Assembly: GCF_921293095.1 (NCBI RefSeq)
Contig: NC_060252.1
Span: 81,116,866 to 81,180,865 of the forward strand
Length of the DNA stretch: 64,000 nt
Source: Ischnura elegans
Taxonomy: Eukaryota > Arthropoda > Insecta > Odonata > Coenagrionidae
Reading direction: 5' to 3'
The position numbers were made by a program, and so were the translations under genes. Each line of letters begins with the position of its first letter. Within the stretch, counting starts at the first letter, position 1. Below the pieces are notes generated by a model. The model made no database searches. It saw only the letters and a list, made by a program, of their open reading frames with translations, and was not told the origin of the DNA. Below are positions 13,991-59,698 of the stretch, in pieces.

Positions 13991-14262
13991 ATACATATGT
14001 GTAAGATGGAATACGATCGTATTACATCGGTATATTTCACGTAGAAGTGGTTCAAAAGTCCCTATGGATGTATGTATTCGTGCGTATTACAAATTGGAAA
14101 TCTGAATACCCATACATGAATTATACATATGTATACAATGGAATACAATCGTATTACGTCTGTATATTTCACGTAAAAGTGGCTCAAAAGTCCCTTAGGA
14201 TGTATGTATACATGCGTATTACAAATTGGAAATCTGAATATCCTTACATGTAATATACATAT
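13991..14262. repeat. 132-bp tandem duplication (2 copies)
   Basis: Units start at 13991 and 14123, each with GGAATAC.ATCGTATTAC, TATATTTCACGTA.AAGTGG and GCGTATTACAAATTGGAAAT. A third start at 14255 is cut short. The frames on both strands here are repeat artefacts. Confidence 0.8.
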
Positions 14263-15233
14263 GTATCTGCAGGCCCTCGTACACGAATTATACATATTGA
14301 TTTTCTGACCCACATCCACTTAATATCAATATGGATCAAACGGATGAATAAATATAAGGAAACCAGAACGTACAGATAATAAAACATTTATTCAAAGAGA
14401 AAAATAAAATAATACACACAAATAACAAGTGTGGCCATGAATATTGCTAACAAGCATTAAGGGCCAGCAAACAGTACGTGAAACTTAGTTTAAAAAAATG
14501 GCACAAAGATAAATCAAGTACAAACAATGGTTTGAGTTGGAAAATAGAAAAAAATGTTAGCACGGAACAAGCGTTGTAACCCATTGCACAAGAAGAAACC
14601 TGAATTCAGGAAACCAACTCTGCACCATTAGCCACTTTCTGAAAGGAGAAAAGAAGAAGTCAAGTTTAAAAGTCATGCAAAAATATATCTTTTTGTAAGA
14701 TCTGAATAGGAGCTCAAGGCCTTTCAATTTTATTTTTTTCAATTCATATAGGCAGTCAGTATTCTGTGAAGTCTGTAATTTTAGTACTAATTCTGTATTC
14801 TGAATGCAAATGAAAGTTTGGCTTCTCTGATAGATTCCAGACATAAGTTTTAAATTTTTTCATTTACCAATTATGTCGAGGTCCCTACTAGCACAGATTT
14901 GACCTTGTCCTTTGAGAAATCATATATTTTGGGGTTATGCTTTCATTTTACAAAATTAATAGCCTTTCTCTTAAGAAGAATGAGAAAAGATCATATGACT
15001 ACTTTTAAATATAAATTAACTAGGAAAACGTGAATCCATTGGTATGCTTATTTATTACATGATACTAATATATTACTACCATGATTTAGTAGCGGATGAC
15101 TCACACAGAAAAAATATAAACTTGTGATATCAAATTTTCAAACAAATAAATTTCATACATAACCGATAATTTCAGGCTTAACTTTAAGAAACCTCTCCAT
15201 TATGGTAAAAAAAAAATTTCCCTCAAAGCTTAC

Positions 15234-35600: not shown

Positions 35601-38600
35601 TTAAAGTTCGAATAATCTCCCCTCAGCTAGGGGCCGGCTTCACCGGCCAAGGGGTAGGGAGGCGCCCCACTCATTACTCGAAACGGCTTCGCCGTACCTC
35701 GCGGAAGGGCGGCTTCGCCGCCCAGGGGTTGAATGTGAGTTGAGATGGGGGAGTCTACAGCGGCTGCGCCGCTTGAACACCGGGGCGGCTTAGCCGCCCG
35801 AGGGTTACTGAAGCTCCTCCTCGCCTACGCCAGTTACTCCTCGGAACGGCTCCGCCGTTCCTCGCTGTGGGGCGGCTTCGCCGCCTTCGGGTTGAGGAGC
35901 CCCCTCGCGGCTGCTCCGCTTAGTCCTCATTAATGCTCTTCTCCACCGAGAGGGGTGCCCAGGGGGATTCGGGGGTTTTAATGTGTTATGCATGCGGTCA
36001 CTAATCATCCACAGTGATCACGTAGCGATGATTGTAAAGGGTAGTGCAATGCGGAGTGATAGTAGCGACAAGTACCCATAGAAGAAGACTTAATGGCAAG
36101 TTTTTCATTTTTTGCGGGGGGTTCCAACGGAATACCGGGGGTTTTATACTTGTGTTAAACCAGTGGTCACAAATCGTTCTCATAAATTCCGTGCCGATAT
36201 GTCCTAGGGGTCCGGAACAGTGGTCTGACGATTCTTTTACCAGGAGAGGCGATTTATTTTGGGAGGTTTCACGGGGTTATCAGAGGTTTTAATAGGTGGT
36301 AGGGGCACCGGTTAAATTGTGACGAAAACTATTCGGAAAGGCGACTTTAAAATTTTTTTATTTTTTTTTCGGCGATGTTCCAGGAGGTGATCGGGGGTTT
36401 TCTGGTATTTTTTCCTGTATGGTTTACGGTGGCTTGCCCACACCAAATATTCCGGAGCTAGAGTTCAGAGGGGACGGGTAGTGCGGCGTAATGTTTTAGA
36501 GAAGTTCCGCAATAGGAGGCTAAATGACACATTTTACATTTGGGGGGGATTTCAGGGGGATACCGGGGGTTTTAAAGTGTGTACTCCTGGCGGTCACCAT
36601 CCGTTCACATAAGTTCCGTGGGGATGAGTCGTTGGGGGCGGTGGAATAGTCACGAAAAGTACCCAAAAAGTAGACTTATATGCAAAATTTTATTTTTTGG
36701 GATGGGGGGTGTATGTGGGTTTACCGGGGGTTTATAGGTTTTTACTGCCAGCGGTCCTCAATCGTCCACATCAATTCCGTAGCGATGAGTGGTAAGGATT
36801 GGAAAAGCAGCGGAATTGGGACGAAGAGTACCCGAAAAGGCTACTTTTATGGAAATTTTAATTTTTTAGGGGGTTTCAGGGGGTTTAAAGATGACGATAC
36901 TATATGGTGACATTCATTTACTGTCATGTCTAAAAGAAGTGTGCCCTATGACAACCATATTTCGAGAGTAATACAATAAAAAGCAAACCAGTCCCTGAAA
37001 AAAGTGAGTAGTGCCCGCCATTTTTATTTTTTCGCGGTTAAATCCATTAAATTATTTATCAAATGTTTATGTTTTCTGAAAGACAATGCATAGTTGTATG
37101 TAACTACAAAGTTTGAAAGAAATCGGTTAGGTTGAAATAGACAAAATCTTGTGTTGATCTTTTAGAAATCGTAATTTTCGGTGATTTTCGGAATATTTTA
37201 ATTTTTTTCTCAGTAAGCAAGGAGGATGAAAACAAATTGTTACCATCATTTCGTAAACAATGCTATGAGCATATATAATAATCATTTTCGTTATCTTACA
37301 CCTGAAATTAAGTCGAGGGGAGCGGAAGTTATGAAAATATTTTCGAAAAAACACTTTTTGGACGCCATTTTGGCTGCAATTTTCTTAAAATGAAACTAAG
37401 AGCATTACACAGTCACATGGCCACGTTTATCAGCTTTTAAAAATGCATTAATGATTCGTGTGGCACGCACGGTTCCCGCGCAGTAAAATAAAAACCGAAA
37501 GACGGTCCCCGGAAAAGGCGCGATTTCGGCCATTTTGTCGACCTAGCGACGACACGTGGCGGAAACTTCCGGTTTTCGGATTTTTCCTCCGGATCATTTC
37601 GGGATCCCCGCACGCCTGCCAAATTTCAGCTCTCCAGCACTTCTAGAAGTGGTCGGGAATTTGTATCCATCAGTGAGTCAGTCACCACAAGGGCTGTGTA
37701 TAGATAGGATGTCTCAGAGATGTTCATTGCTATGTGGGTACCGAATGTTTGCTATTAAGAAGTGTTATTGTTTTATAATTTGTATATTAAAAATTATTGT
37801 TAAATAATTTTATTAGAAAAATTAAAAGACTTGGCACATGGCCCCTCTGCCCTGCCATAATTCCAGGCCTGGGAGAAATATATCAGACTAGGCAATATTA
37901 AAGTGACCCTGAATATTTTAAAGGAATTCACTTCAAGGCTGCAAAAAAGTCCATAGTATTTGGACTAATTAGAGGTGTTTAAAAATGCTAAACACAAAAA
38001 ATTCAATGACAACAGTCGTCAGAAGTTTGATCTTAATAGATTTCAAAGTAAGACATGCATAATTTAATAACTTCAACAAAACTTGGCAATTTTTTCCCTG
38101 GTAATTGAATACTGATTCAATATTCTTTTCGCATGAATATGTTTCCGAAACTATGTTTGGTGACTCCCTCATAAAAAAATTTGCGAGGGAAGTTACCATT
38201 ACTATATTACTGACTTGTATTAGAAGAATTCGTATTAATTTCAGCCTACGTCATGATTTATTGTGTTAGTGATTAATTTTTGTGGAGTCTCAGAGTGAAA
38301 TATTTTTATTGACAGAAAGAATAGAAGCAAGGATGTCAAACATAACTTTTTCTAAAAACATTGCATCAACAAACACACAGCAGAATTCATAAGGTAATGC
38401 AGACCAGTAAGTGGGTGGATAGTACTAAAAGTAATAATGTCAATGCAATACCTGGATGTGATGATCTTCATAAATTCCTTGAATACGGATTGCACCACCA
38501 AGTACTGCTTGAGAGAGTGATATGGTAGCATCTGTATGCACATCAGAACCATCTCTTTTAAAGTAATCTGACTTTTCTACTTTGAATGTGATGAAAACCT

Positions 38601-41600
38601 CTTTCCGATTGCCAATTGGCATTCGAACTGTTTGACCATTTTCCACACCTAAAATCACAGATTATAAAACAATATTATGAACAAATACACTATGATATAT
38701 TCTCTTCTAATATTCCTGTATTTTCCTTCTATCAATGGACTTACACTTACAACTATGGACAAAACGGATGACTTAAAATTAGCTAGGAGAAAAAGTGGAG
38801 GGATGTTTTACTCACTCACATAAAATATCTAGCCCAACGACTAATTAGAAAGAGGCCACATATTCTTGTCCCGAAAACAACCATGGTTGTTTCCACAGCA
38901 ACTAAACCGAGGCTTTTAAACTTGGCTTCTTCATATTATTGATAACAGACACTTCGTCACTTCCACAAAATATTTATAAAAATTTTCAATGACCGGTTTA
39001 GGCTTTTACACCGTTATCAAATACAGATAATATAAAAATATGGTGGGTACAGGTGTATATATTGTAGCCGTTGCCGTTTGGCTCGGTTCATGATGTAGTA
39101 AAGAGGCATTTACGACGTAGGGAAGGCTTGCGTAAATTATGAAGGGTCGAATAAATATTGTAAAGTGTTATTTAATTTTATGTAAATGCTCATGTAATTT
39201 TGTATGAATGTGTGTGTGAATGTGAAGTGATGAATGAATGCCTAGATTTTGTATTTTCCCATCCCCCATTCCTCCCACGATTCTTCCGTCTACGAAGTGG
39301 AAAATTCCGGTGCCTACGTGATACGTGGCATGTTTCTCCCCACCCCACTGTGAAGCCGGAACACCTGCGTACGGAGATGATGAAATCCTCCAACCCCGCC
39401 CTCCACAGAAAACCACCCCCCTCCCCTACGGAAGAATAGCCGAAAAAACCCGATGCCCGGGGTTTTTCCGTCCACCCATCCCCCTCCCAGAAAGTGGCTA
39501 TATAAGCGGAGCGGACGACATGAGGAAGGAGGATTCTGCTGGAGACATCCGCCGGAGGCTCTGCTGGATTAGGTACCAGGTCTGTGAGGAGAGAGAAAGA
39601 AAGGGAGGCAGCACAATGTGGAAAAAGACGAGAGGATTGAACGGCGGTGACTTTGGAAAGAGGAGATAAGAAGGAATCTTCCTAGCACGCGCAGCAGAAG
39701 ACGTCGATCCACGGCGCCAACACAGGAGTTCTCTCATCCCACAACGATACTAGTCGCTGTATCGAGCCAGCCGAGGAAATCTCCACCAGCAAATCAGCGA
39801 GAGTGTTAAGTACTCCAGCCACCAATATCCCCAAATTTCAACAGAATCAGAAGAGCCCCACTCCCCATTCCCCTCTTTCTTCCATTCAAGAGAAGAAGAA
39901 CAGTGATATTCTCCCGTACATTTTTTTTTATATTTTTTTTTAAGTTCCCCCGTGTCCCCGTGTGTGTGTGTATGATTAATGGTAGTTAGTAAGACAATAA
40001 GAGATTATTTGGAATTGGCGATTGTCATTTATCAAGCATTTTTATAATATTTCACGCCAACAATTGTGATCAGGGTTTATTTTCTTTTTTTGTCATTTAT
40101 TAGTTGATGTTATTAGGTTCAGAACTGGCCAGTAGCAGTAATTTAATTTGTGGTATTCAAAGAGTTATTCATTTATGTATTTTGAGGAACATTTCCTATT
40201 TAAAGTGATAATTAAACGTGTTGTTGGAACTATAAACTGTTATGTAAGCCTTCATTATTTCGTACGCGCCAGCCTCCATTCAGCAAGTGAACCTACCCCA
40301 ACTTATCTTTCCATTTCCTTTTCTCCCCCCTCCCCCTCCATTTCCCCTAGCCATCGAACCACGGCCCGCTCACCTTGAGCAATCCCTCCAAGCTATCCTC
40401 CCCCACCCCTCTGAAAGTGGAACCCGAACGGACGACGGACGGGCGGGTTACAATATACTATGTTTACTAATGCAGTGGGGACGGTTACACAGTTTGGATT
40501 GGTATATTCCTGGAAGGGAAGGGGGTGGGGAAACAAAGTTAGTCATTCGGGTTGTGAGGGTGGAGGATTTGGGAGGGTGATGAGTAATAAGGGGGATGGG
40601 TTGGGAAAGGTTGTGTCGTTAGCAAGGATTCCAGTTGTTGCTATATCCTGAATTTTCAAGGCATCCATCCTCCTTCCTTTAATGGTAAAATGGAGTATTT
40701 CTGGATTGAAACTGCTTTGGTGCCCCATTTCCAAGAGGTGCCACGTGAAAGCTGACGTATCATCCTTGTTCTTCCAGCATGCCTTCTGTTCCTTCATCCT
40801 TGTATTTAAGTTTTGTCCCATTTGGCTGATATAGCATGAATCACAATTTGATAATGGTGAAATAGCCAAAACCGGTCATAGAAAATTTTTATAAATATTT
40901 TGAGGAAGTAACAAAGTGTCTTTAATTGATAATGTGGAGCCCTTCTACCAAGCTTCAAGTTTCAATTTAACTTGGATTCTCATTTGAATTTTTTTTCAAA
41001 ACATACCGTATTTGCACAAATCTAAGACGAGGTTTTTTCCCTTCCTAACTCCTGCAGAAAAGAGGGTTCGTCTTACAATTGGATGCAAAATTCTCTATGT
41101 CAATCGGGTTGCATAATTTACGTCGGAAAAATTATGGATACCTGAGTTTGCCATCTGATAGCTACACAACGAAAAACCAACGTCAAAAATAGCTGAAAAG
41201 TAATTTAGCTTATTTAATTTTGCATTCAAGTAAAAAAAATTCCATTTTTAGGCAGCATGCAAAGATTCGGTGCGTGTCGATCAGTCGCCGAGTGCACTTC
41301 TGCCGTGTCCGCGAGATCGCCTGCTTTACCCTGAGTTCGGCTCCATTCAAGTTAAAGCTTGATCAACTTACAAAATGTTCGAGGGAGTGGTTAAAATTTA
41401 CCTAAATTTTAACGTTAAAGCCTCAATGCCGTCGCGGAATAAACTGCTACAAAGTCGTTGCATTTTTCTCAGAGCAACGGTAAGAAGGCAACATGACTTG
41501 CCTCTGATTGGAGAGATCGATTCAGTTGTGATCCCGTGCCTTTCAGAGTATTACCATGGCAGAGAAAAGAAGTCATTACACTACCGCTTTCAAAAGAAAA

Positions 41601-44600: not shown

Positions 44601-47600
44601 ATTCGTTGTTATATAACCGCGGCCTCATGCAGGTCGAATGGAGCCCGGAGAAGTTGCTTACGCGGCGCGCTGATCACCTTGACTCCGACTCACCATGTTT
44701 CTCGGCAGCTTTTAATAAAATTTGGTTGGACCTTGAATAACGATTAGCTAAACTGTGTTAAGTTAAAAGGTTTAATCTTCAACAGAACTGGATTTCATCT
44801 GAAAAATTGTCAGTGCCTCTGCAGTTTTGGCAATTTCGTCCGAGTTATGGTGTCGCAGTCAAGCACCAAAGGATTCCTGCTGGATTTTCGTATTTTTCCG
44901 CGCTCATCTATTTTACCGTGATATGTGGTGATTTTTTTTCCAGCATGAGCGATTTATTTAGAGTCATGGACATGCCGAGGACAGCCGAGAAACATGGTGA
45001 GTCGGAGTCCAGGTGATCAGCGCGCCGCGTAAGCAACTTCTCCGGGCTCCATTCGACCTGCATGAGGCCGCGGATATATGACAACGAATCTGGTGTTATC
45101 ATCGAGTTGAATCACCATCGACTTGTACGCATACTAGAAAAAAGATTCTCCTTTTTTGGATGACCTCGAAATCCAAAATGTGCGCTCAGGAGGCTCATTG
45201 TCGAAACTCCGATTGTCATTCTCTTTAGACATAAAATAGCACCAGATCTTTGAATCGACAGCGATATCAACCAGCCGCATGTTGGTATCTAGGCTCCGGG
45301 ATATCTAAATTACGATGTAAAATAATGTTGTTCCGTTAGGAAAGAATGTTTTCACTCACGATCATGACAGGGGAAACACTTCCTCGGTTGACCTCGGTTG
45401 ACCTAACTGACCTTGGAATGGATTATAAAAATAATCTTCTAGTGAACTGCGCAAATGATATCGAGCCTCTTATGAAAAGAGAAAGTAGCTGACTGGAAAA
45501 ATATTGGGCTAACAATGGACTGCCCCTAGAGAGTAGAGTAGAAAGGGGCATAAGCCGTCAATTGAAAACATTACGAGGAAACCATCATTGTAGCGGCCCT
45601 CGGATGATAACTCGTGTCATCAGTCGTCACGTATCATCGAAGTTCACGAAGTGAAGGATAAGGTAGTTAGAGGTTATCAAGGGATGACTTAGCTCTATTA
45701 GATCGGATCTGATACAAAAAGTGTCTGGTGTGTTTGGATCAGAAGGGGAGCGAAACATTACGAGAGGACAAATCACCCAGCTTGGGAGTTGAAGGTCCCA
45801 GCGCTGCATTCGCGGAAGAAAGCAGTTGAAGGAGCGTTCCCCGGTAGATTCTATTGACTTTTGGTAAACTTTCATTAGAGACTTCTTGTCGATGAGCAGA
45901 AATTCGAAGATTTTGATAATCACTTGCATGAGCCGTCATGAAAAAACGTTAAATCGGGCAAAAAAATCTTGTGCGGGAAAAATTTTTACGACCATAAATG
46001 CGGAAAAACGCAAAATGCACTAAATACGGATAATTTTTACATTGTCTTAATAGGGAATGAATCGGGACCGCAAAAAATAAACGCTAAATGCGGAAAAACG
46101 TTAAATGCGAAGACATTAAATCCGGATCCGACTGTAATATGACCAAAAAATATTTAAAAAATAAATATCTGCAATGTCACTTCTTGGCCAATAAATCAGC
46201 TCATGGCATTCTTTGCCAGAGAAGCAATTTCAGCCAATTCATTTTCCTGTGTATAGATTATATTTGCCCTACAATCATTTTGTAAGTCAGGCTGCAAATA
46301 GAGATGTACTTGATAGATTAAGGAACCCACCTGCAGGTACAGGTACTGTTACTTTTTTTCTCTGCACAGTCTGCCCTTTTCCTTCACATTCACTGCATGG
46401 GAACTTGATGTACATCCTTGTTCCATGACAGTACCGACAAGTCGAACGCATAACAAAGGGTCCTGAGAAAAAGGAATTGAAGAAGAGTTTTTAAAGAAAA
46501 ACTTTACCACAATGAAGAGGCAACTAACTAGGCAGGATGTACAATTGTGAAATATAGAGAAACTTAGCTGCGATCCACTGTTGCATATCATAGAATGACT
46601 ATTTTATTACAGAATTTCAAATTATATTCAACTAGTCATTTTTGTTTTCATGCAGTCATGGTGAATTAAAAACCAAGTTGAAACCTGATGATACTTTTGT
46701 ATAAAATTACATTATGTAAATAGTTTAACCATTAAATAAACAAATATGATTAATTTATTTTATAAGAAAATACCTTCCATAAAATGGCTAGAAATAATTC
46801 ATTTGATTATAAACATTACTGATTTCTCTGAATACACTATGAAACTTATGCTAACAACTTACACGTGACATGAGAAACTGCGGGGTAACCGAGTTACCCC
46901 ACAAAGCTGTTGGCGGGAAGAAAAAAAACATGTTTGTTGTATGAGTGCAGGGATAAATGTTGAATGCAATAAATTTGATTATAACTTCAGTACAATGAAT
47001 AGTAGAGGCCTTCACGTTGTAGAAATCCATCTTACTGATTTGTGAATGAAAAACTTTGCTGTTTCTACAATTTGGAACTTTATTTTCCTGACTAGTTTCG
47101 ATACACTGTATCATATTCATAGGACTAGCTAGTCCTATGAATATGATACAGTGTATCGAAACTAGTCAGGAAAATAAAGTTCCAAATTGTAGAAACAGCA
47201 AAGTTTTTCATTCACAAATCAATAACTTCAGTAATGCCAATATTCTACATAATGGCACCTTTTTTGTACTTGTTTTCTCATAGCATATTAGTCAATGTAC
47301 AGTTACGATAGCAAAATATGAAAGATTCCTGCCATTTTGCACAAAACCAACATAAAAACCTAAATGTAGCCTATAATGTATATATAAATTATATAAAACA
47401 CAGTATTATATCATCAAAAATTTTCCATGGTGTTGAATGAAAGGAGAGACTAAAATACAACATACAACAGGGTGGTTTCCTATTATAATTTTAATGCCTG
47501 AATCGAAAGATTATTCCTCCTAGATTACGAATTTCACACTTTTAGATTTTTAAATGACTATATCTATTTTTCGCTATTAAATGAAAAGTGAAAAATTTCA

Positions 47601-50600
47601 AGCACCCGAAAATGCGACGGCTAAGAAGGAATGATGGGAAAAAGTCCGTGTGACGTATTTCTGGTTCCCCCTGCCGCCTTGTGAGGTGACCTTGGGGTGA
47701 GGCTTGAGCGCTGATATGACACAGGCTGCTAGCAGGTAGCTGAGTACCCTGCTAGCTGGTAGCGTTTGGCTTATATAAGGATTATTATTCCCCTATCAAA
47801 CAAAGGAAACTTACCGAACTTAGGTATTTTTAATGTGTGATTATTAATAGATGTTTCCCTGAGCTCTGTGCCTCATGCATGCATTGGTAATCTCAGACGA
47901 TGTAAAACTCCTATCTACTCGTATAGAAACTAGGTCCCTGTGACATCACGTGGAGCGGAATCGCATTGGCGCCAATCTGACCTTTTTCAAATGAGGTTAA
48001 AATTGACCGTTGCCATTCGTCTAAGCTGGGATTTCTAAAACCAAATAATTTGTATATTATGAATACACTAATGGTGGGTAAGGAATCACAATCATTGCAT
48101 TTCGTTTTCTTTGATGAAGGAAACTACCCTATTTATGAATTATAAATGTGAGATACCAGACACAGTCGTTTGCGTAAGTTTTCTAGGCACAGCCATGGAA
48201 GGGTTACAAGCTCAAGGAACTTATTTAACTTTCATAATACTACCCAATCGGAGTATTACTACCGAGAAATGCTAAGGGTATTTCAATAAAATATGTCACC
48301 TGAGAAAAAAATTAAGTTCAGCAATTCACTTATTGCCCAATAAATCGGCTCATGGTACTCTTTGGCAGAGAAGCAAAAGCTGATTTTCCCTGACTTTGCC
48401 CTGATTACAATTTTTTTTATTTCCCTGACTTTTTTTCAATGGCAAAGCAGTCATTTACAGGATTTTACATAAAAATACAGCAAGATATACTGTGAAATAA
48501 AAGCAAGCATTAGAACAAGTAGAAGCGCAAATAAATTCTTGCCAATTAGGGGCTATCGCTGAGCCGCCCAGCAAGGAATGCAACAGAAAGCCCACCTCTC
48601 CACTCGAATGCAGCAACACTGCATATGCTAAATTATTCTTTAAATCTTTATGCTGCACCTCTGGAGTTTTTCCTCGGCCATAACCTAATTTCTCTGACAT
48701 TTCATTGACTTCCAGACCCGATTTTTAATTCTTTGACTTAACCTGATTTCTTTCACTGCTATTTTTTTGGCTAATAAAACTATTATTATTATTATTATTA
48801 TTATGAACCCTATAAAATATAATTAGGGCATTTTTCTGACCTGATTTCTTGGGATAATATGTGATTAACAGATTAGATGTAAATACCTGTACTAATTGTC
48901 TCCATCCCAGTTCCATTGCAGTATTGGCACTTAACAGCTTTTGTTCCAGGTTCAGATCGAGATCCACAACACTTAGGACATGTATCCACAACATTTAGAT
49001 GGACATCCTTGTTCACTCCTCTGGCAGCTTGGGAGAAGGTAAGATTCATTATCACCTGAAAAAAATGATAAGTATGTTTATAAAGGTAAAAATAAGAAGG
49101 CTGCCTGCAATCAAACTAATGATCAAGCAGCTGAGAAGGCCTCCATAAAATCTGGAAGGTGATGAAGGTGGTAATGCTACTGACATTTCAAGCAGCTCAA
49201 TTCAGATGATGACCCTTTCACTGACGTTTTAGTCATTAATCATTCAAAATGATAAGTGAAAAATAAGATACAAAGAGGCTGATAAGGTTCACAACTCATA
49301 TCTTTCACAAAACCAGGCCCAAAGTTGATGGGATCCAACAAACTAGCAATCAAAACATGAACTGAAGGCTTCCATGGATATAATTAATGAATGACGCATT
49401 TTGAATATTTTCAAAGGGAAGGAAGAGGAACGTTTGAGTATGGAAGCACTTACTTTATAATTTTTTCCTAAATCTGATTTCTAATTTATCTTTATAATTA
49501 ATTATCTACAGTAAAACTTCGATTTTACGCACTTCGATTTTACATCAAGTCTCGTTTTTACGCAGCGGCACTCAAGTCCGGCCGGAAAGCATAGGGAATT
49601 GCAATAGTGAAACTTCGATTTTATATCTTTTCTTGATTTTACGCAGTTTTTCGATTTTGCGCAGCATAACCCCAGCCCCTAAGAGGTCGCTAATCTTGAT
49701 TTTACGCAGTTGTCTTTCGACTTGTTTTGAAAATCCGACTAGAGCAATATGCAGTTAGGTTATTATTTCGTCTCAATGAGTTGCAAAAATGAATACAGGA
49801 ACCGTTGAAATGACATCGCGCTGTTGAGCGTGAAACTAAATACATTGCGAATCTAATTATTGCTTCCCCGTGAGCCCTCTCAGTAATATTTCAGGCTCCA
49901 TTACGAACACGAATGTCGCTCTTAGTTCAAATTCGCCGTAGAAGGATATCGAAACCTAAAACACACGGCAATCGCCGTGTATGCGTAACTACTTTTGATT
50001 AAGACATGATCGCTGGAGATATTAACATAATCACCTTTCGTTTATTATTCGACTTATTGATCGACGCTGTTTATATCCACAATTATGAGCTACGGAATAT
50101 CTATCCCCAACGCAAGGCTTTCTAGAATTTTGCCAACGCTATGCTTTCCGTCGCCCCAGCGAAATATAACCGCGAAATGAGTCATTAAAAATACTCCCGT
50201 GCCAAAATTTTGGCTTCCAAGGTGATCCAAAAAAGATAGTCGTACTTCTAGTATCGACGTAAGTCGATGGTGATTCAACACGATGGTAAAAGCAGCCTGC
50301 ATTGTCTCATTCCCAGGCTAACCCCATATCTGCGGGACAAATGGAGGCGAGGGAACATTGCTTGCGCTGCGCGCTTATCAGAACCGACTCAACTTGTATC
50401 TCATTGTCAGACGGTTTAAGTTAAACATGGTTGGAACTTGAATAGCTATTACCTTAACTCCGCTAGGTGGCAAGCGTTTTAACGGAACGGGAGTCAATGC
50501 CCTCGGAGAATAACTCGCGTCGTCAATCGTCATGTAATCATTGAAGTCAAATTCAAGACGTGAGTGATAAGGCAGTCCCTTTAAACTCAGGAATGGCTTA

Positions 50601-53600
50601 GTACCATTAAATCGAAATACAAAAAGTGTCCGGTGTTGTCATCAGATATGGGGAAGCAAAATATTACGTGAAGCTGAGTCACACGGCTTGTGAGTCGAAG
50701 GTCCCGGCGCTGAATTCACGGAAGAATGCCGACAGAGAAGCTATTCCCGGAAGAGTCAATCTACTAATGCTAAAATTTCATGGGGAAATGCTTTTTTAAT
50801 GCATATAAATTAAAAAGAAGGAAAATTTTGCAGGACTATTAGTCATTTTTTATTCATCACGGGCGGCATGACGGCAGTTGCGTGGTCATTTAAATAGCTC
50901 ACTTTAAAAAAGTGATCTAAGCACCGGAAAAATCTGAATTTCCGAATATCCCGGGTCCTGTGTGCTCCGTATTATCTATGGTATGCTGTTTGGAGGTAAC
51001 CAACAACTGGGGTCATTAGCGCCATGAAGTAAGGGCTGGGGGGATAGGTACCCTATGTTGGCATTAGCCAGGTTGTAATGATAAGCTCAAAAGGGACCAG
51101 GACTTAACTTCCCATCTGATGGACAGAGTGGTGCACTGGAAGTGCCCTCCACATTAGACTCAAGTAGGGATAGGGTCATCTCTGATAAGTCTCTGCTACT
51201 GCCAGGACTTGAACCCAGGCCCACAGGGTGTAAAGCCTTTGTGATGTATTAGCAAAATTTTGCACCCTGTTAATGGGGTTAATTTGGATGACTATCCTCA
51301 GGTATCTCATTTCTTCAATCTCCAATCTTTGTTTGTCTGCTGGTGGTTAAACGGATATCCTGAAAACTGCTTCTAATGAGAATATTTTCGAAAATTAGCT
51401 TCTATCAGACCTTTTAGTATCACCATTCCGAAATTTCTCCTGGGTAACAGAAGTAATCTTAGTGCCAGAAAGCATTTCAACCATTTTGTTCAACCATGGG
51501 AAACACTGTTCAGGAATGCAAAGTTGTTTCTCTTAAGGTAACACGTCATCTGTGGTGTTGCTTTTGAGTAAATAAGATTATTAGGCTTCATTTTCCGAGC
51601 TATAATGAGTAAGTGTTATCCTGAAAACTATACTCCTCCTCAATACCAACTCTTGATTTTACACAGTGCCCATATTTCGGTCCCTCCAACTGCGTAAAAT
51701 CAAAGTTTTACTGTATTCTAATCTCGAGATAGATTTGGCATGTTTTAGCTAAATAGCATCACACATATGCACACTAAGCACTGGATTACTGTAAAAAAAT
51801 CTCTGTACAAAAGAACACACATTTCCCAAAGTGGTATTTTCTGTTAAGACCTATTCAAATTCATCTTACAGTCAGGGCTAAAATAATAGAAATTCCCAGA
51901 GCTTCAGGATACCACTCATCCCAAGCTAACGCACTAAAACTTTTTAGATGGAATTTCCCCAATTCCATTATGCCTTTTCAAGTTAAAAATTCGAAAATAA
52001 ATAACTCAACTTGAATCCATAAACCTGTCCCATTTTATAATGGCCGCATTATAGGCAATCAATAGGTCAGGAACTTCATACTTCCACATAATGTGGTCAT
52101 AAGGAATGGCAACCCAAAATTGGGCTGTAATTTTCCATGAGGATGCCAGGAAAAATCATTCCATTACTAGAGGGGTTTTACATAATAACTGCATCAATCT
52201 CACCTCTTGGGCACCACCAAAACCAAAAGTTGACTCAGCATATTCCTCAAAATCATTCATTCCTTGCTTGAAGCCAGCATCGCCAAATATTTTCCGAAAG
52301 AGTTCCTCTGGGTCAACAGAGGAATGAAACTGCCAAGATTGGGCATTGAATCCACCAGCCCCAGCTCTAGGGTCACCTCCCGGATGTCCTCCTCCCATAC
52401 CCATCTGCTCAGACGTCGCTCCCCATGCATCATACTGCTTCCTCTTGTTCTCGTCACTCAGCACCTTTTAAAAATAATGCACACTATAATATATCAACCA
52501 TACCAAATGACGATCTCACAATGGTTAATGGCTGCATTCAATCAGTTCTCACCAGGCAGCATACAAAAACTACAAATAACACCCTTCCACCACAGCAAAA
52601 TATTTACTCCTATAAATTTAACTTAAATAATACAAAATCCCTTGGGCTGACAACTTGGTGAAGAGCCCAAAGATCTCTCTATAGACAGTACACCCATGTC
52701 TCGTATAGCGCAATTTCGATTAGCGCAATTTCGATATAGCGCAAATTCGTTCCTCGGGGAAACATTGCAACGCAGTGTAGCCTAATCAAAAATCTTAAAC
52801 GCTCTCGCGATAAAACGTGAACTTGCGCTAAGTACACACGAAATTTCTATCAATATACGCATATTAATATTATTTCTTGCCTCAAATCTTCTTTTTTGTT
52901 TATATATTAATCGAAATTCATTGCTGCGCAATTGCCAAAAGTATTACTCGTCATTGGGTCTAGATAGCCGGCCTACCGAAGATTTATCTCGTCTCCTTAA
53001 CAGAATGATAATAAATAATTTAGATCGTTAATTAAGCGTGGGGCTAGTGGAAATGAGTTTTTTTTTCAGCAATACGGTTTGAGACGTATTTTTGCCGTCG
53101 TAGGTTACCGGGCGATTGACTTCCAGGTAGAGAGTCTACGCTGAAGCCTTCAAGGTCATCGGTATTCACGGGGGAGAAATGAAGCGGTGACGGAGTTGCG
53201 CATGAATAGCATTAACACATAAAAGGGTCCGCTATAGAGTCTTAAACACAATGGCTTCGTTCCCTCCCCGCAGTCATAGCCCTTCTGCGTCTCAGGAATA
53301 CAGTTCAGCAGAAGAAGGTGATTTAGATAGAGCCATACAGAGTAAAAACCAAGAGAATATGGCAAAAAATAGGGATGCGTGTAGAAAAGTCAAGAATTTA
53401 TCAAGAAAAACCATTAACCTAGAAGAGGACTTGAGAGAGGTTAATTGCTTTGAAAATGGAGAGCGTCAAAGCGATATTACGCGGAAGTTTAAACTCACGA
53501 TGCCTTATTCTGAATAAAGACGAAGCTAAAATATCAGTGACCTCAGCCGCACCAACTTCAACCAAGCGGTCTACACATACGGAAAGTTCATGGTGAATTA

Positions 53601-56600
53601 GTACAAAAAGACGAGAGTGGTAATCGCTCCGAGACATTAAGTGAAAGCTCCGGTTGGTTCCAGAATTTAAACGGCAATCAGGTATTTTCAGTGCGGCGAT
53701 ATCAGGTGAATCTGCAAGTGTTGATAGCGCAGCCACCACAACATTTTCTGATGAACTCCAAGCTGTTATTGAAAGTGGCTCCTTTCCCCCTCAACTAGTT
53801 TTTAGTATTGATGAGACGATATTCTTTTGGAAAAGAATGCATTCTCGTTCATTCATTTTCAGGGAAGGAAAACCTGGGTCAGGTTTCAAGGCATTTAAAG
53901 ACTGTTTCACGTAGCTGCTAATGACTCGGAGGACTTCAAATTAAAATGATTTATCATTCATAAACTCCGCTAGCTATGAAATGGCATTTAAAGTAGTATT
54001 TTCCTGTCATTTCGATGAGCGACAAAAGGGCCTGGGTGACACATAGTTGTTTTTAGACTAGTTTGAAAAATCATCAACTGCCGGCAACGCATTACGATCC
54101 CCTGAGATAGCAGATGTTAGCCCACCCGCACGACAGGATGGAATTTCGAAAGCACGTAAGAATTTTTTTTAACGTGAATAAAAGTCTTTGAATGCGTGAA
54201 TACTATCTTTAAAGATGTTTTAAACTATAAATATTTATAGAAATAATGTTTTCTAAGGCTTTTTATGGGAATATAGATGTTTTAGAGGAAATTCAATACC
54301 CAAGACCTATGCTACCAGGAACGCATCCCTATCTTCCCTATGTTAAAACGCTCTCGTATAACGCAAATTCGTATAGCGCAAAGACCCCAAGGAACGCATC
54401 CCTTGCGCTATACGAGACATGGGTGTAGGTGATCACTCGCACCAAAAAGTCACAGCGAAGGAATACAGTATTTCAAGGGCCAGGTAGTAGATTTACTTCC
54501 TTTTCCCATAGATGAATTGAAAAAATGAAAAGCACTAAATGCAAACCAAATTAAAAGTCTATCCATATCCCTATTAAAGCCCATAAGTTGTACTACATTC
54601 ACTCAAAATACAAAACCTTTTGAACCAGATACCAACCTGGTCTTTCCAGAGTAGTCATGCAGTTTACATGCATGAGAACCCCAGGATAAGCATCCAAGTC
54701 TGTTTAACACCACTTAGGTTTTCAACGGATTTTGTTATGATACAGACATAATGCTGCTTAGGTATATTTGTTCTTCATTGGACTTCTCTCAACTGCTTTC
54801 TGTACAATGGAAACAAATCCCTCTTCACACTCCAACCTAAAATTATCCTCATCAATGCTCTTAACTCTTGAAATTACTGCACGAGCAGTAAGAGTTGACC
54901 TCACACCAATACTTATTTCGGACAGATTCAAACCATTTGAAACATCATCATTGTTCAGCCGGTTGTCTTTCCTTTCCTTTTTAAGAATTGTCTGAATTCA
55001 AAACTGCCTGTACATCCTTCAGAGCTGATCATCAATGTCACCATGAATAAATGAATATTAACTTCAGCATCCGACACACTTAGAGAATTGGCTCAGGAAA
55101 TTATGCTATTGTCTAAAAGAAAAGAAGTTACAGTAGCAGAAAATCTCAAGAAGGGCTAAATGGGACAACAATTAGAAGTTTAAAGAAAATTAATTCCCCA
55201 AGGCCGTACTCTTTGATGGGCAGATTGCTAATGGGAGGTAATTGCAAACGGGAGGTAATGGCAAGATAAGACACTAACTGAAAATACAAACGTGAAACTC
55301 ACACACGCACCTCGCGGATTTGCTCAAGGGAACAAATGACCGCGTGGGACACACGCGCTCACTCACTCAGGTTTGTGGAGCCCTCGCTCACGACAGTGAC
55401 CCACTCACACAAAAGAAAAGGACAAAATGAAATAAATAAAAAACACGCTCTCAGTCACGCACCTCGCGGATTTGCTCAAGGGAACAAATGACCGCGATGG
55501 ACACACGCACTCACGCACTCAGGTTTGTGGAGCCCTCGCTCACGACAGTGACCCACTCACACAAAAGAAAAAGATAAAATAAAAACACGCTCTCAGTCAC
55601 GCACCTCGCGGATTTGCTCAAGGGAACAAATGACCGCGTGGGACACACGCACTCAGGTTTGTGGAGCCCTCGCTCACGACGGTGACCCACTCACACAAAA
55701 GAAAAAGACAAAATAAAAACACGCTCTCAGTCACGCACCTCGCGGATTTGCTCAAGGGAACAAATGACCGCGTGGGACACACGCACTCAGGTTTGTGGAG
55801 CCCTCGCTCACGACATTAGAAGTTCCATTGGCTTCAAGTAATGAAAAATATCAAGTTATTTGAGTTCATCCACTTTACCAGGGGCATGGCGGTTGGGAAC
55901 ATATGTGCTCCACTCATGATATGATTCCTGATGGCATTAATGGCGTCTTCATTCGATCAGAAAGGGAAGCAGATGGGACTGATATATTGACATAATTCTC
56001 TTCTTAGTCCTACTAGGCAAGGAAAACATAGAGGAGAACACCAACAGTACACTGCACTGCATGGCACATGGAGCCAACTAATAGGGTGGTTTCCTATTAT
56101 TTTTTTATTGCCTAAATCAAAAGATTATTACCCCTGGAGTATGTATTTCACGCTTTTAGATTTTTAAATGACGATATCTATTTTTTGCGATTAAATGAAA
56201 AGTGAGAATTTTCAAGCGCGCGAGAACGCGACGGCTAAGTACGAATGCCAGGAAAACTCCGTGTGACGTCGTTCTGGTTCCCGCTGCCGCAAGTGAGGTG
56301 ACCTTGGGGCGAGGCTTTGAGCGCTGATACGATGCAGGATGCTAGCAGGTAGCAGAGTACCCTGCTAGCTGGTAGCGCTTGGCTTAAATAAGGACTATTA
56401 ATACCCTATCAAACGAAGGAAACTTTCCGACCACAGGCAATTTTAATAAGTGATTATGAAGAGATATTTCCCTTGGCTCTGTGCCTCATGCATGCAATGG
56501 TAATCTCAGACGATGCAAAACTCCTATCTACTCGTATAGTATCTGGGTTCCTGTGACGTCACGTGGAGTGGCATCGCACGGGTGCCAATCTGGCCTTTTT

Positions 56601-58856
56601 CAAATGAGGATAAAAATTGACCATTGCCATTCGTCTAAACCGGTATTTCTAAAACCAAATAATTTGTATATTATTAATACACTAACAGTGGGTAACGAAT
56701 CGCAATCAATGCCTTTTGTTTTCTTTGATGAAGGAAACTACCCCATTCTTTATTCCTTTATTTTTAGAAAAAGATTCCGAGATCCTAGATGCTTTCTTTT
56801 CTTGTCCTTATCCAATTCCACAGCATTTCATTTTCCCTGTCTTTACGCTGATTCCATGGTTTTCAGGTACTAGGGATAGGACTCTGAGTAGAGTCGAGAG
56901 AAGAGACACTTCTAGAATAATCTAGAATAATTATTAGTCTAATTATACAACTTTACTCGTATGCGACATTTATCTTTGGCCAAAATCATCAGTTTTCATG
57001 TAAAAATCTTAAGTGGTATTAATTGAAAAAAATACAAGTACAAAGTAACAACACCGACATAATACTCAAAAGGTGAGTTTCATATGCCTAAAATGTCTTT
57101 GGATTCTCCGGATCTCAAGGGCAATAAGTCACACTCCCTATTCAACACCTATCAACTTTGCCAGTGATTGAATTTCTACCGTACATGCACTTTAAAACCC
57201 AGTTAAATAGTTAAATCGCATGTTAAGCAATTCTATTAACCAAAACAAATTTGATAACTTCCTCAGAGGACCCTTTCCTATTGTTAAAATGTGGCCTTTA
57301 TCATTCTGCAACTATCAGCAAATGGTTCTCAATTAGAGCATTAAGTTGAATAATTATTCTACGGCAGTGCAGGATTAAAAATTGTGAATTTAAAAGCCTT
57401 CATCACCTAACCTAAGTCAACTGGGTAGTAATTGAAATTCATGTGGAAGTACATAATACAAATCAGAATATTCTTTCTCGTCTTGCATTTTTATACCACG
57501 CAATTCTGTTAAGGAAACCACAGATTTGAATTATCTGCACCGAATATAATATGAAAAGATGAAGAAATCAGAACAAGGTAACCCAAATATTTCCCACTAC
57601 CGCCCTTTTTAAGGACAATATGACTAGACTGAAATATACGTTGTAGAAAAAATGAGAATTCTCACGTTTATTTGCAATGAGCAACTTCAGTTGCTATAGA
57701 ATTCGACGGATGAAGACTGAAAAGTTAGAATAAGTACGATTTTTTTCTCTGAATGCTAAGCTACTGCTCGCATTTATCTTAAATAATATGATAAAATGAA
57801 CCAATTCAATATACAAATCAATCATAATAAAATATTTCCAGCTTATTTAGATAGAAGTAACATCAAGCATAAATTTGAAAAATTCAGCATGACAAAAATA
57901 TTAAGCATAAATGGATAGAAAAGACAGCACGACCAATAGACTACAAATTCCCTACGATCACATAAATCTTTGAGAGGCAAAAAAAAACTTGGTAACCAGT
58001 GAAAAGACTATATCCCCTTCAAGAAATACAGTTGAACACGGGTTCAAATTAGAACTATTATTTCTTCGCCATGGCGCACCTACTACATCAAAGGGTTCAT
58101 GGTTTGCGATCAATTATTAATAATATTCTAATCTTACATCCTGAACTGCAGCAAATGTTTAGCATCAACAAAGAAACTTAAATGCACTTACTTCGTAGGC
58201 TTCAGACACTTCTTGAAACTTTTTCACAGCATTAGGATCACCTTTATTTCTATCAGGATGATACTTTTTGGCTAGCTGGAAGTATGAAGTCTTTATTTCT
58301 TTCGGAGAGGAATTTCGCGCTACACCAAGAATTTCGTAGTAGTCTCTCTTCTTTTGTAACAAGGTCGATGATGCATGAATAGATCTTAAATTATACCGGG
58401 AGTTCAAGGGACCTTGGATACAAAAAATCCATCATTAGGATAACATGCCAATTTGAAGTAATAAGCACAGAGTAATCAAAAGGATATCTAGTTAAATAAA
58501 TAAGTTCCTCCCAACTAGTATCAGCTAGATTAGAAGCTATGACATTAAGTACTATCTAATACTACGCAATGCTTACTTATTGAGACTGCTAATAGGTTTC
58601 TTGGCCCTAACGTAGCATTTGAACTGCTATATACTTTTCCACATGAATTACAGCGATGGAATAAGTTTTTGTGAAAGGTTTTAGGAGGCTGCCAAGATGA
58701 AAAAATAAACTTTTTAGGTAATGCCGCTCTTGACAATCCCCTCGTGGTGGCCATTTCTAGTGGAGGCAGTTGTTCAGGAACGAACGAATCGTAGAGGCCG
58801 CACGCCGCAGACGATGATGAAACAAGACAAAGACGTAACGAATTATTCGTAAACAT
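32535..58856 (-). CDS. DNAJA3: DNAJA3/Tid1 mitochondrial DnaJ co-chaperone, whole gene (8 coding exons)
   Basis: Mitochondrial type-I J-protein that stimulates mitochondrial Hsp70 in folding matrix proteins. Joined exons are 58856-58577, 58412-58192, 52464-52204, 49055-48887, 46462-46331, 38648-38452, 34704-34491 and 32638-32535. Every junction is GT..AG with matching phase (1,0,0,1,1,0,1). The 1578-nt CDS gives 525 residues (human about 480, Drosophila about 520). Domains in order are a presequence (1 to about 110), a J-domain (about 116-181, HPD at 145-147), a Gly/Met-rich linker, four CXXCXG-type zinc motifs (Cys 280/283, 297/300, 319/322, 333/336), a substrate-binding C-terminal region, and a tail ending KIKRAIFG that resembles the human end. 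The gene spans 26 kb because its introns hold many transposons. It is divergent from MTIF3 with overlapping start codons. The family assignment is firm; the exact start (Met1 or Met35) and the 3' end are inferred. Confidence 0.93.
32639..34490. other. DNAJA3 intron 7
   Basis: No exon or named repeat is visible. The frames at 33243-33627 overlap on both strands and are unassigned. Confidence 0.5.
34491..34704 (-). CDS. DNAJA3: DNAJA3 exon 7 (C-terminal domain II)
   Basis: Residues 421-491 plus one base. The acceptor CTGCAG|ATT begins [34 protein letters not shown] and [13 protein letters not shown] follow, both diagnostic of the Tid1 subfamily. The donor GATG|GTAACT is phase 1. It can join either of two downstream terminal exons (32638 or 32077). 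Confidence 0.94.
35505..35960. repeat. GC-rich block of small hairpins
   Basis: Repeated short perfect hairpins with CTTCG or CTCCG tips: TTAAGGGGCTCCGCCCCTTA near 35530, GGGCGGCTTCGCCGCCC at 35707, GGGCGGCTTAGCCGCCC near 35785, GAACGGCTCCGCCGTTC near 35844, GGCGGCTTCGCCGCC near 35871. GC content is far above the rest of the window. The open frames on both strands follow from this composition. Confidence 0.8.
35965..36895 (+). repeat. Degenerate tandem array, ~110-170-bp units
   Basis: The motif GGGGGTTTTA recurs at 35971, 36137, 36284 (variant), 36393, 36565, 36726 and 36879. Most units also share GCGGTCAC..AATCGT, CATAAATTCCGT..CGATGAGT, ACGAAAAGTACCC.AAAAGG and CAAATTTTAATTTTTTGGG in the same order. 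Confidence 0.75.
38452..38648 (-). CDS. DNAJA3: DNAJA3 exon 6 (C-terminal substrate-binding domain I)
   Basis: Residues 355-420. The acceptor is TTTTAG|GTGTGG and the donor CAG|GTATTG. It encodes [36 protein letters not shown] and [22 protein letters not shown], all characteristic of the type-I DnaJ C-terminal domain. Confidence 0.95.
39063..40452 (+). mobile_element. Solo LTR, 1390 bp, with 4-bp duplication
   Basis: Starts TGTAGCCG and ends GGTTACA, flanked by ATAT (39059-39062 and 40453-40456). A TATA box stands in GGCTATATAAGCGG at about 39497. The 4-bp duplication fits a Ty3/gypsy-type LTR. Frames inside on both strands are not genes. Confidence 0.6.
40650..40850 (-). pseudogene. GIY-YIG nuclease fragment of a Penelope-like element
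   Basis: About 65 residues aligning by eye with the GIY-YIG domain at the C-terminus of Penelope-like proteins: YIxQxGxxLxTRxKEQ, then HLLExGH. The conserved G of GIY/YIG is changed (YIS) and the reverse transcriptase is absent. Confidence 0.55.
41006..42656 (+). mobile_element. Tigger/pogo-like DNA transposon remnant
   Basis: Inverted termini of about 25 bp (CCGTATTTGCACAAATCTAA, inverse of TTAGATTCGTGCAAATACGG), flanked by TA. At 41556 a frame starts [19 protein letters not shown]. This resembles the start of the Psq/CENP-B helix-turn-helix of pogo/Jerky-type transposases, and it decays after about 25 residues. Confidence 0.7.
43246..43299. repeat. 23-bp-arm hairpin
   Basis: AGGAAACTGGCAT..TTGTTACA pairs with TGTAACAAGATGCCAGTTTCC across a 6-base loop, with one bulge. 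The size resembles a small-RNA precursor, but nothing else supports that. Confidence 0.6.
43847..46134. mobile_element. Tigger/pogo-like element with internal palindrome
   Basis: The inverted ends CAGTAGAATCCTGATTTAAG and ATTAAATCCGGATCCGACTG are flanked by TA. AAATGCGGAAAAAC and TAAATGCGGAAAA subterminal motifs recur at both ends. The interior holds a >200-bp-arm inverted repeat (about 44490-44715 and 44978-45200), whose arms resemble the 49509 element near 50090-50300. No intact transposase. Confidence 0.7.
46331..46462 (-). CDS. DNAJA3: DNAJA3 exon 5 (last two zinc motifs)
   Basis: Residues 311-354 plus one base, phase 1 at both ends. The acceptor is CTCAG|GA and the donor GCAG|GTGGGT. 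It encodes [15 protein letters not shown] (Cys319/322), CSECEGKG (Cys333/336) and [13 protein letters not shown], the start of the C-terminal beta domain. The start and end of this exon are not visible as an ATG-to-stop frame and come from splice sites and family alignment. Confidence 0.93.
46993..47221. mobile_element. Insertion containing a perfect 186-bp palindrome
   Basis: Bases 47036-47221 form an exact inverted repeat with 93-bp arms and no spacer (centre AGGACTAG|CTAGTCCT). The insertion is bracketed by a 12-bp direct repeat, ATAACTTCAGTA (46981-46992 and 47222-47233). Each arm carries GACTAGTTTCGATACACTGT, resembling terminal sequences of Penelope-like elements. It lies in DNAJA3 intron 4. 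Confidence 0.75.
47469..48130 (+). mobile_element. 660-bp MITE family, copy 3
   Basis: AGGGTGGTTTCCT ... GGAAACTACCCT, same orientation as copy 1. Lies in DNAJA3 intron 4. Confidence 0.8.
48781..48804 (+). repeat. (TAT)8 microsatellite
   Basis: Eight uninterrupted triplets, 80 bp beyond the donor of DNAJA3 exon 4. Confidence 0.9.
48887..49055 (-). CDS. DNAJA3: DNAJA3 exon 4 (first two zinc motifs)
   Basis: Residues 255-310 plus one base. The acceptor is TTTCAG|GTG and the donor ACAG|GTATTT. It encodes [14 protein letters not shown], then CPKCCG (Cys280/283) and CQYCNGTG (Cys297/300). These supply half of the two zinc centres of a type-I DnaJ cysteine-rich domain. Confidence 0.95.
49509..51713. 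mobile_element. Tigger/pogo-like element, copy 2
   Basis: Same termini and internal order as 26202-28093, TA on both sides, about 310 bp longer. The extra region (about 50090-50830) includes sequence that copy 1 lacks and that also occurs at 62100-62640. Lies in DNAJA3 intron 3. Confidence 0.8.
52204..52464 (-). CDS. DNAJA3: DNAJA3 exon 3 (end of J-domain, Gly/Met-rich linker)
   Basis: Residues 168-254, phase 0 at both ends. The acceptor AAAAG|GTG gives [15 protein letters not shown], the end of the J-domain. A Gly/Met-rich linker ([10 protein letters not shown]) and the family motif [11 protein letters not shown] follow. The donor is GAG|GTGAGA at 52203. Confidence 0.95.
52691..54425 (+). 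mobile_element. Tigger/pogo-like transposon with broken transposase
   Basis: Perfect 23-bp inverted termini (CACCCATGTCTCGTATAGCG..., 52691-52713 and 54403-54425) between TA dinucleotides. AGCGCAATTTCGAT-type motifs repeat just inside both ends. Encodes the transposase fragments at 53251-53914. Lies in DNAJA3 intron 2. Confidence 0.85.
53251..53914 (+). pseudogene. Tigger/pogo-type transposase, frameshifted and truncated
   Basis: The first frame (53251-53514) has the Psq/CENP-B helix-turn-helix pattern: [29 protein letters not shown]. After frame disruption a second frame (about 53640-53911) gives [27 protein letters not shown] and [10 protein letters not shown]. This is the Tigger DDE core around its first Asp (IDET). 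The remaining DDE residues are not readable, so the protein is dead. Confidence 0.8.
54758..54997 (-). other. Unidentified 79-residue open frame in DNAJA3 intron 2
   Basis: Open without an initial Met and ends at TAA (54760-54758). It contains [20 protein letters not shown] and [20 protein letters not shown], a balanced, non-repetitive composition. A possible acceptor (TTTTGAATTCAG) stands at its start. It could be the last exon of a nested gene or a transposon protein remnant; no family recognised. Confidence 0.3.
55306..55815 (+). repeat. Minisatellite, ~134-152-bp unit, 3.6 copies
   Basis: CGCACCTCGCGGATTTGCTC starts units at 55306, 55458, 55600 and 55734. Each contains AACAAATGACCGCG, GGTTTGTGGAGCCCTCGCTC and GTGACCCACTCACAC. 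Units differ mainly by small length changes in an A-rich linker and a CACTCA run. Confidence 0.9.
56083..56744 (+). mobile_element. 660-bp MITE family, copy 4
   Basis: AGGGTGGTTTCCT ... GGAAACTACCCC, same orientation as copies 1 and 3. The 130-codon frame from 56481 runs through it and is not a gene. Confidence 0.8.
56745..58191. other. Distal part of DNAJA3 intron 2
   Basis: AT-rich with no exon or recognisable repeat. Confidence 0.5.
58192..58412 (-). CDS. DNAJA3: DNAJA3 exon 2 (J-domain)
   Basis: Residues 94-167. The acceptor is ATCCAAG|GT and the donor GAA|GTAAGT. It encodes RDYYEILGV, then helix II ([11 protein letters not shown]) with the catalytic HPD loop at 145-147 that contacts Hsp70, then helix III (FQEVSEAYE). 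The intron that follows is 5.7 kb and holds a Tigger/pogo-like transposon, a minisatellite and a MITE. Confidence 0.95.
58577..58856 (-). CDS. DNAJA3: DNAJA3 exon 1 (mitochondrial presequence)
   Basis: Encodes residues 1-93 plus one base of codon 94. The donor reads AA|GTAAGC at 58576. An in-frame stop lies upstream (58884-58886) with no ATG between it and Met1, so 58856 is the first possible start. A second in-frame Met35 at 58754 begins a more typical basic, Ser/Arg-rich mitochondrial presequence ([16 protein letters not shown]), so translation may start there instead. No homology is expected in this part because presequences diverge quickly. Confidence 0.8.
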
Positions 58857-58886
58857 GATTTGGAGGCAATTATTACGAATTGTTCA
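58792..58886. promoter_or_regulatory. Shared bidirectional promoter region of DNAJA3 and MTIF3
   Basis: The two genes diverge with no gap: CATG at 58854-58857 contains both start codons. The interval given runs between the two upstream in-frame stops. Each 5' UTR must lie inside the opposite gene's first exon, unless DNAJA3 starts at Met35 (58754). No TATA box is obvious, as expected for paired housekeeping genes. Confidence 0.55.
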
Positions 58887-59424
58887 TCGAGAAGTAGTTT
58901 TTTGTCAGCGTATTCCAATATTTAGGCAATGTGGTTGGCTATTTGGAAATGCAAAGTTTAAAACTATCACCTGTGCTCGTCAGTCGTCTGTCTGGACCGG
59001 TGGAATTAGTAAAGGAGGTCCAACTAAAACAGAAGATACTGCGAAGGGAAGCAACGCGAAGAAAGACACAAGCCCTAAAATTACCTTGGTAAGCCCCGAT
59101 GATAAAGTCAGTGTCGTGTCTCTGGAAGAAGGGCATAATATTGCTAAAAGAAGAAATTTGAGACTCGTCAAAATGGTTGAATACGACACGAAAACACAGA
59201 GACCAGTTTACCGTATGATGTCAGTTTCTGAATATAATTTGGAACATAAGAAAGACAAAGCTTCCAAAGCCAAAACTCATAAGCGGGAAAAGCATATCAC
59301 CTTTTCCAGTCGAATCAGTGACCATGACATGCAGTCTAAAGTGAAAATGATTGATAAGTGGCTAGCCAAAGATCACGAAGTACGTGTTATTATAGCTGGG
59401 GATTCTAATGACATGAGTGGTGCG
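58855..59424 (+). CDS. MTIF3: Mitochondrial translation initiation factor IF-3, exon 1
   Basis: Mitochondrial IF-3 binds the small mitoribosomal subunit, keeps subunits apart and helps select the start codon. This exon carries 190 codons. There is an Arg-rich presequence ([14 protein letters not shown]...), a linker, the IF3 N-domain (about residues 75-125: KITLVSPDDKV...RRNLRLVKMVEYD...RPVYRMMS) and the start of the C-domain (HITFSSRISDHDMQSKVKMIDKWLAKDHEVRVII), which is close to the bacterial IF3 signature. The donor is GCG|GTAAGT at 59425. An in-frame stop at 58792-58794 with no intervening ATG fixes 58855 as the first start. The next in-frame Met is inside the IF3 domain. The start codon overlaps that of DNAJA3 on the other strand. 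Confidence 0.92.
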
Positions 59425-59530: not shown

Positions 59531-59698
59531 GAAGAAGTTTATAAAGCACTAGAGGGTGAAATGAAGGAAAGGTCTCGATTTCTTCAAAAACGCCAGGTTA
59601 ACGCCGATATTAGATTTAGCATCAGAACTCTGCCAGGAAATAAACATGATGCTATTCAAGGAACAAAAGGTCAGCTGTCGCCCCCAGAAGACTCTTGA
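59531..59698 (+). CDS. MTIF3: Mitochondrial translation initiation factor IF-3, exon 2
   Basis: The acceptor TTTCCAG|GAA follows a 106-nt intron and is phase 0. Fifty-five codons then TGA (59696-59698) complete the IF3 C-domain (EEVYKALEGEMKERSRFLQ... VNADIRFSIRTLPGNK) and a short Gln/Pro-rich tail. The whole protein is 245 residues, a little shorter than human MTIF3 (about 278). There is no nearby AATAAA; the first is at 60573-60578. Confidence 0.9.
   Translation, partial: EEVYKALEGEMKERSRFLQKRQVNADIRFSIRTLPGNKHDAIQGTKGQLSPPEDS

Follow-up and report, generated by a model that had tools for sequence, protein, structure and literature searches.

What does it mean when the start codons of two divergent genes appear to overlap in the same four bases? 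The question is raised by a stretch of 64,000 nucleotides of Ischnura elegans DNA (contig NC_060252.1, positions 81,116,866 to 81,180,865), hereafter referred to as the window, in whose own coordinates all positions are given. Here the genes for DNAJA3 (minus strand) and MTIF3 (plus strand) lie head to head, and the first in-frame ATG codons of both are found in one CATG. The reading that we favor, with a probability of about 0.62, is that of a head-to-head gene pair with a compact bidirectional promoter, in which MTIF3 starts at 58855, DNAJA3 starts mainly at a downstream methionine, Met35, and the upstream DNAJA3 ATG is a by-product.

Geometry of the CATG junction

The junction has the sequence TAAACATGATTTG (bases 58850-58862), within which the CATG occupies positions 58854-58857. 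The ATG of MTIF3 is read from it on the plus strand (58855-58857) and that of DNAJA3 on the minus strand (58856-58854), the two codons having two bases in common. Upstream of the MTIF3 start the frame is closed by a TAG at 58792, which is followed by 20 sense codons without an ATG. The DNAJA3 frame is closed by a TGA at 58886-58884, and nine sense codons, likewise without an ATG, separate it from the start. An earlier note on this DNA had claimed the two-base overlap, the upstream stops with no earlier in-frame ATG in either frame, and a DNAJA3 Met35 about 100 bp inside the gene. All of these were found in the sequence, with the first base of the Met35 codon at 58754.

Out-of-frame ATGs are present on both sides of the junction. 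Two of them (58814 and 58817) lie ahead of MTIF3 on the plus strand and belong to a single upstream open reading frame (uORF) of 12 codons (58814-58852), which ends two bases ahead of the MTIF3 ATG and would be carried by any MTIF3 mRNA with a more upstream start. Ahead of DNAJA3, an ATG at 58887 on the minus strand opens a four-codon uORF (MNNS, 58873-58887), which would be carried by any DNAJA3 mRNA beginning within MTIF3. Both uORFs were identified by eye.

The two genes are adjacent, occupy opposite strands and are transcribed away from each other, i.e. they constitute a divergent pair. The gene names, orientation and tightness of the arrangement proposed in the earlier note were borne out by the geometry, by gene models and by matches to Pfam and PDB. 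The DNAJA3 protein matched DnaJ (PF00226), DnaJ_CXXCXGXG (PF00684) and DnaJ_C (PF01556), all over the Pfam cut-off. Among the best 60 of its 72 PDB matches, the best matches to the zinc domain and to the J domain only were DNAJA3 chains (2ctt, 6iws and 2dn9), and the best whole-length match was a DnaJ chain (6jzb). The MTIF3 protein matched IF3_N with 29.9 bits, over the cut-off of 26.9, at residues 73-135. Its match to IF3_C, with 26.2 bits, was under the cut-off of 34.8 and covered only positions 4-39 of the 86 in the profile. The best PDB match of this protein was mitochondrial IF3, 6neq (1.7e-07).

Presequence character was assessed with simple descriptors, namely counts of lysine and arginine (K/R) and of aspartate and glutamate (D/E) and the helical moment, rather than with a trained predictor. 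Read from its Met1, MTIF3 has seven K/R and one D/E in 40 residues, with a maximum helical moment of 0.69. Because the next methionines lie inside the stretch matched by IF3_N, the MTIF3 start at 58855 can be trusted, barring extra residues encoded in a spliced leader.

Choice of the DNAJA3 start

The same descriptors were applied to the two candidate starts of DNAJA3. From Met35, the protein has eight K/R and no D/E in 40 residues and a maximum helical moment of 0.43. From Met1, the corresponding values are two K/R, three D/E and 0.23, and the 34 residues ahead of Met35 taken alone contain one K/R and three D/E. The ATG contexts are CAAATCATGT at Met1 and CTAGAAATGG at Met35; the Met35 codon (58752-58754, minus strand, context GAAATGG) has a G at position −3 and a G at position +4. 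Because of the presequence character of the residues that follow it, Met35 is favored and appears a likelier start than Met1.

With a start at Met35, 100 bp (58755-58854) separate the two coding starts, so both 5′ untranslated regions (UTRs) could fit without overlap. The earlier note had held that each 5′ UTR must lie within the coding sequence of the partner gene, unless DNAJA3 started at Met35. The necessity of such overlap was not established, since it requires that DNAJA3 start at Met1, while the sequence favors Met35; the exception made in the note looks the likelier case.

An overlap of start codons may also arise by chance. Five of the 292 CATGs in the window, that of the junction included, open at least 34 codons in both directions; the open lengths are 195 and 103 codons at the junction and 35-75 codons at the other four. 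When divergent pairs with spacers of 60-160 nucleotides were simulated, an overlapping in-frame open ATG was obtained in 1.2% of cases with intron-like composition and in 3.3% with spacer-like composition. With a chance of 1.2-3.3% per tight pair, no selection is needed to explain the overlap, and a genome with many tight divergent pairs should hold some chance overlaps, going by the 2,199 known from Drosophila (see below).

DNAJA3 and MTIF3 probably form a gene pair of an ordinary kind, if packed more tightly than usual. The short region between and around the coding starts would serve as a compact bidirectional promoter firing in both directions. MTIF3 would begin at 58855, and DNAJA3 would begin mainly at Met35, where a typical mitochondrial presequence would open. 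The upstream DNAJA3 ATG in the CATG would then be a by-product of two circumstances: a C happens to precede the MTIF3 ATG, and the DNAJA3 frame happens to be open across the spacer. The sequence and the database matches show the geometry, the gene families and the two candidate starts; the shared promoter and the use of Met35 are inferred.

The spacer and the alternatives

Between the Met35 codon and the ATG of MTIF3 lies a spacer of 100 bp (58755-58854), which is likely the core of a shared promoter. The ratio of observed to expected CpG was 1.52, 1.82 and 1.80 in tiles beginning at 58701, 58751 and 58801, respectively, compared to 0.80 in the window, a peak that fits a promoter. Of the motif patterns tried over 58740-58900, matches were obtained only for the two-unit TTCNNGAA, at 58773, and for a palindrome. 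The latter is the perfect 13-bp ACGAATTATTCGT at 58838-58850, with two-mismatch copies at 58780-58792 and 58875-58887. With up to two mismatches, the ACGAATNATTCGT palindrome occurs at seven sites in the window (14 rows when both strands are listed), three of them at the junction. Two or more additional copies, no more than 110 bp away, accompany 2 of the window's 34 perfect palindromes of the same form and 10 of 1,373 sampled 13-mers. The hexamer ACGAAT is present four times in 136 bp; some CpG-containing hexamer occurred at least four times in 15 of 3,000 shuffled sequences and in 7 of 940 tiles, including the junction tile. The palindrome and ACGAAT were both picked after the sequence had been looked at and are weak evidence for that reason; ACGAATTATTCGT, repeated across the junction (58780-58887), is a weak candidate for a shared promoter element and, like the CpG peak, no more than suggestive of co-regulation.

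Folding of 58755-58890 as a DNA hairpin gave a z score of −0.55, with 55 of 200 shuffled sequences folding at least as well, and a search of Rfam returned no matches at the gathering threshold. A 14-nucleotide direct repeat near TGGAGGCARTTRTT, with copies 100 bp apart, was set aside: it is one of seven direct-repeat families in 58600-59050 and is near chance by a rough estimate.

Several observations weigh against a compact shared promoter with DNAJA3 starting mainly at Met35. The CpG peak is not unique, as 17 of 1,278 tiles have at least 12 CpG and a ratio of at least 1.5, two of these being at the junction. No TATA element, exact initiator (Inr, TCAKTY), DRE (one mismatch) or NRF1 site (two mismatches) starts in 58740-58900, and neither does a three-unit heat-shock element (up to one mismatch). 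DNAJA3 Met1 has an A at position −3, so ribosomes loading upstream could use it. Codon usage is uninformative: the 33-codon stretch that separates Met1 from Met35 has a log-likelihood ratio of −0.13 per codon, a value undercut by 7 of 61 coding windows (which overlap one another) and equaled or exceeded by 756 of 1,161 stop-free windows presumed to be noncoding. The first 33 codons score no better elsewhere, with −0.14 after DNAJA3 Met35 and −0.18 from the MTIF3 start. Finally, with space for two leaders so tight at 100 bp, the two mRNAs could quite possibly overlap to some extent at their 5′ ends.

The alternatives differ in where DNAJA3 begins and in what lies upstream of the coding starts. 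If DNAJA3 started at Met1, inside the CATG, the coding sequences would overlap by two bases and each leader would be antisense to the coding exon of the partner. We consider this unlikely. In its favor, no stop interrupts the frame on the way from Met1 across the splice donor, no other ATG precedes Met1 in the open frame, Met1 has the A at position −3 just mentioned, and codon usage does not oppose it. However, residues 1-34, with their single K/R and three D/E, are unlike a presequence, and a DNAJA3 mRNA beginning more than about 31 nucleotides upstream of Met1 would meet the out-of-frame ATG at 58887 first. Both DNAJA3 starts might instead be used: a Met1 form, poorly equipped with a presequence, would come from transcripts beginning within MTIF3, and a mitochondrial Met35 form from those beginning in the spacer. 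The two in-frame starts do differ in predicted targeting properties and both ATG contexts are acceptable, but the idea is speculative and in our judgment very improbable. We regard as equally improbable the further proposal that the CATG functions as a joint start, at which the choice of transcript start within MTIF3 would switch between the Met1 and Met35 forms, and antisense leader overlap and the uORFs would couple the output of DNAJA3 to that of MTIF3. If true, such a joint start would couple mitochondrial folding to mitochondrial translation.

It is also conceivable, but quite improbable, that one or both genes have a remote 5′ untranslated exon that is spliced in, in which case the proximity of the ATGs would say little about promoters. 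Potential splice sites for such a leader include minus-strand acceptors at 59121 (score 10.8), 59038 (9.5), 59143 (7.6) and 58991 (7.5), minus-strand donors at 59085 (7.7) and 58971 (7.3), a plus-strand donor at 58717 (5.6) and a plus-strand acceptor at 58811 (5.8). Their scores are within the range of the sites used in the gene models, but were obtained from a generic consensus matrix without a background count, and such sites may be common. The compact bidirectional promoter with DNAJA3 starting mainly at Met35 is the reading that we retain. If true, it adds one more pair of genes for mitochondrial proteins on a shared compact promoter, in this case a chaperone partner and a translation initiation factor, and it advises caution where genes are packed head to head, as translation need not begin at the first ATG there.

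Gene models, other features and known systems

The DNAJA3 model has seven exons on the minus strand, from 58856 down to 34491, all joined in frame; the last exon was not located. Coding exon 1 occupies 58577-58856 if Met1 is used, and its donor is TAA/GTAAGC. According to the Pfam matches, the J domain starts in exon 2 (58192-58412) and ends in exon 3 (52204-52464), and the zinc domain starts in exon 4 (48887-49055), with the remainder in exon 5 (46331-46462). Exons 6 (38452-38648) and 7 (34491-34704) come from the gene model. The two MTIF3 exons, on the plus strand, also join in frame. Coding exon 1 (58855-59424) contains the presequence-like start, IF3_N and the beginning of IF3_C, as placed by the gene model and the Pfam and PDB matches; coding exon 2 (59531-59698), which runs through the stop codon, is supported by the gene model only, the Pfam matches ending earlier, at residue 181. 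Splice sites of both models were scored with a generic consensus matrix, which gave 5.1-11.2 for the eight donors and 2.6-13.3 for the seven acceptors.

A tandem array of 3.6 copies of a 134-bp unit lies within a DNAJA3 intron (55304-55815), and another, of 2.1 copies of a 132-bp unit, at 13991-14266. A GCGGCTTAGCCGC palindrome at 35785 (region 35709-35884) has three one-mismatch copies within 110 bp. Open stretches at 26146-26499 and 49498-49755 encode a near-identical peptide (YSKTSILRT...LILRSCLST) and are likely a dispersed repeat. Overlapping plus-strand open reading frames at 53206-53911 resemble a decayed transposase; Pfam gave no match in the three frames tried.

Relatives were sought with the MTIF3 protein as the sole query in two collections, viral_contigs and genome_contigs, neither of which is described as holding eukaryote genomes. 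In viral_contigs five stretches fitted the pattern and one, L001, was listed as a relative, with 44% identity over query residues 3-38 and an E value of 9e-6 (relative to the candidates only). It was rejected as a probable coincidence, since the match sits in an open stretch of 48 codons and is carried mainly by RQCGWLFGN; this judgment concerns the matched stretch and not a possible IF3 gene elsewhere in L001. In genome_contigs, none of 35 pattern matches was confirmed.

Going by titles, a literature search for DNAJA3 together with MTIF3 or with "bidirectional promoter" found no paper on the linkage of the two genes. The arrangement itself resembles the divergent pairs of Drosophila and vertebrates, as these are presented in the cited part of PMC2670823: the genes lie on opposite strands, their 5′ ends are near and a promoter region is probably shared. 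That source gives 2,199 divergent gene pairs for Drosophila, of which 114 (5.2%) overlap at their 5′ ends and 94.8% do not; in 59.0% of the fly pairs the transcription start sites (TSSs) are less than 400 bp apart, mostly 200-400 bp. Unlike those pairs, which were measured by TSSs, DNAJA3 and MTIF3 are compared by coding starts, which are 100 bp apart or overlapping; this spacing suggests TSSs less than 1 kb apart.

Among genes for mitochondrial proteins, mammalian HSPD1 and HSPE1 (HSP60 and HSP10), two chaperone genes, share a bidirectional promoter, according to the section of PMC7262932 drawn on here. Like them, DNAJA3 and MTIF3 are nuclear genes that lie head to head and encode mitochondrial proteins, and each pair includes at least one member of the folding machinery. 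Here, however, the partner is a translation factor, and in place of a three-unit heat-shock element (up to one mismatch) there is one two-unit TTCNNGAA only. Antisense overlap of mRNA leaders, possible at this locus, is a property of head-to-head 5′-overlapping genes, of which one study counted 473 human protein-coding pairs and another 582, according to a review (PMC9917990). The cited portion of that source makes no mention of overlapping start codons, and leader overlap at DNAJA3/MTIF3 is only a possibility. Divergent pairs and 5′ overlaps are already well described.

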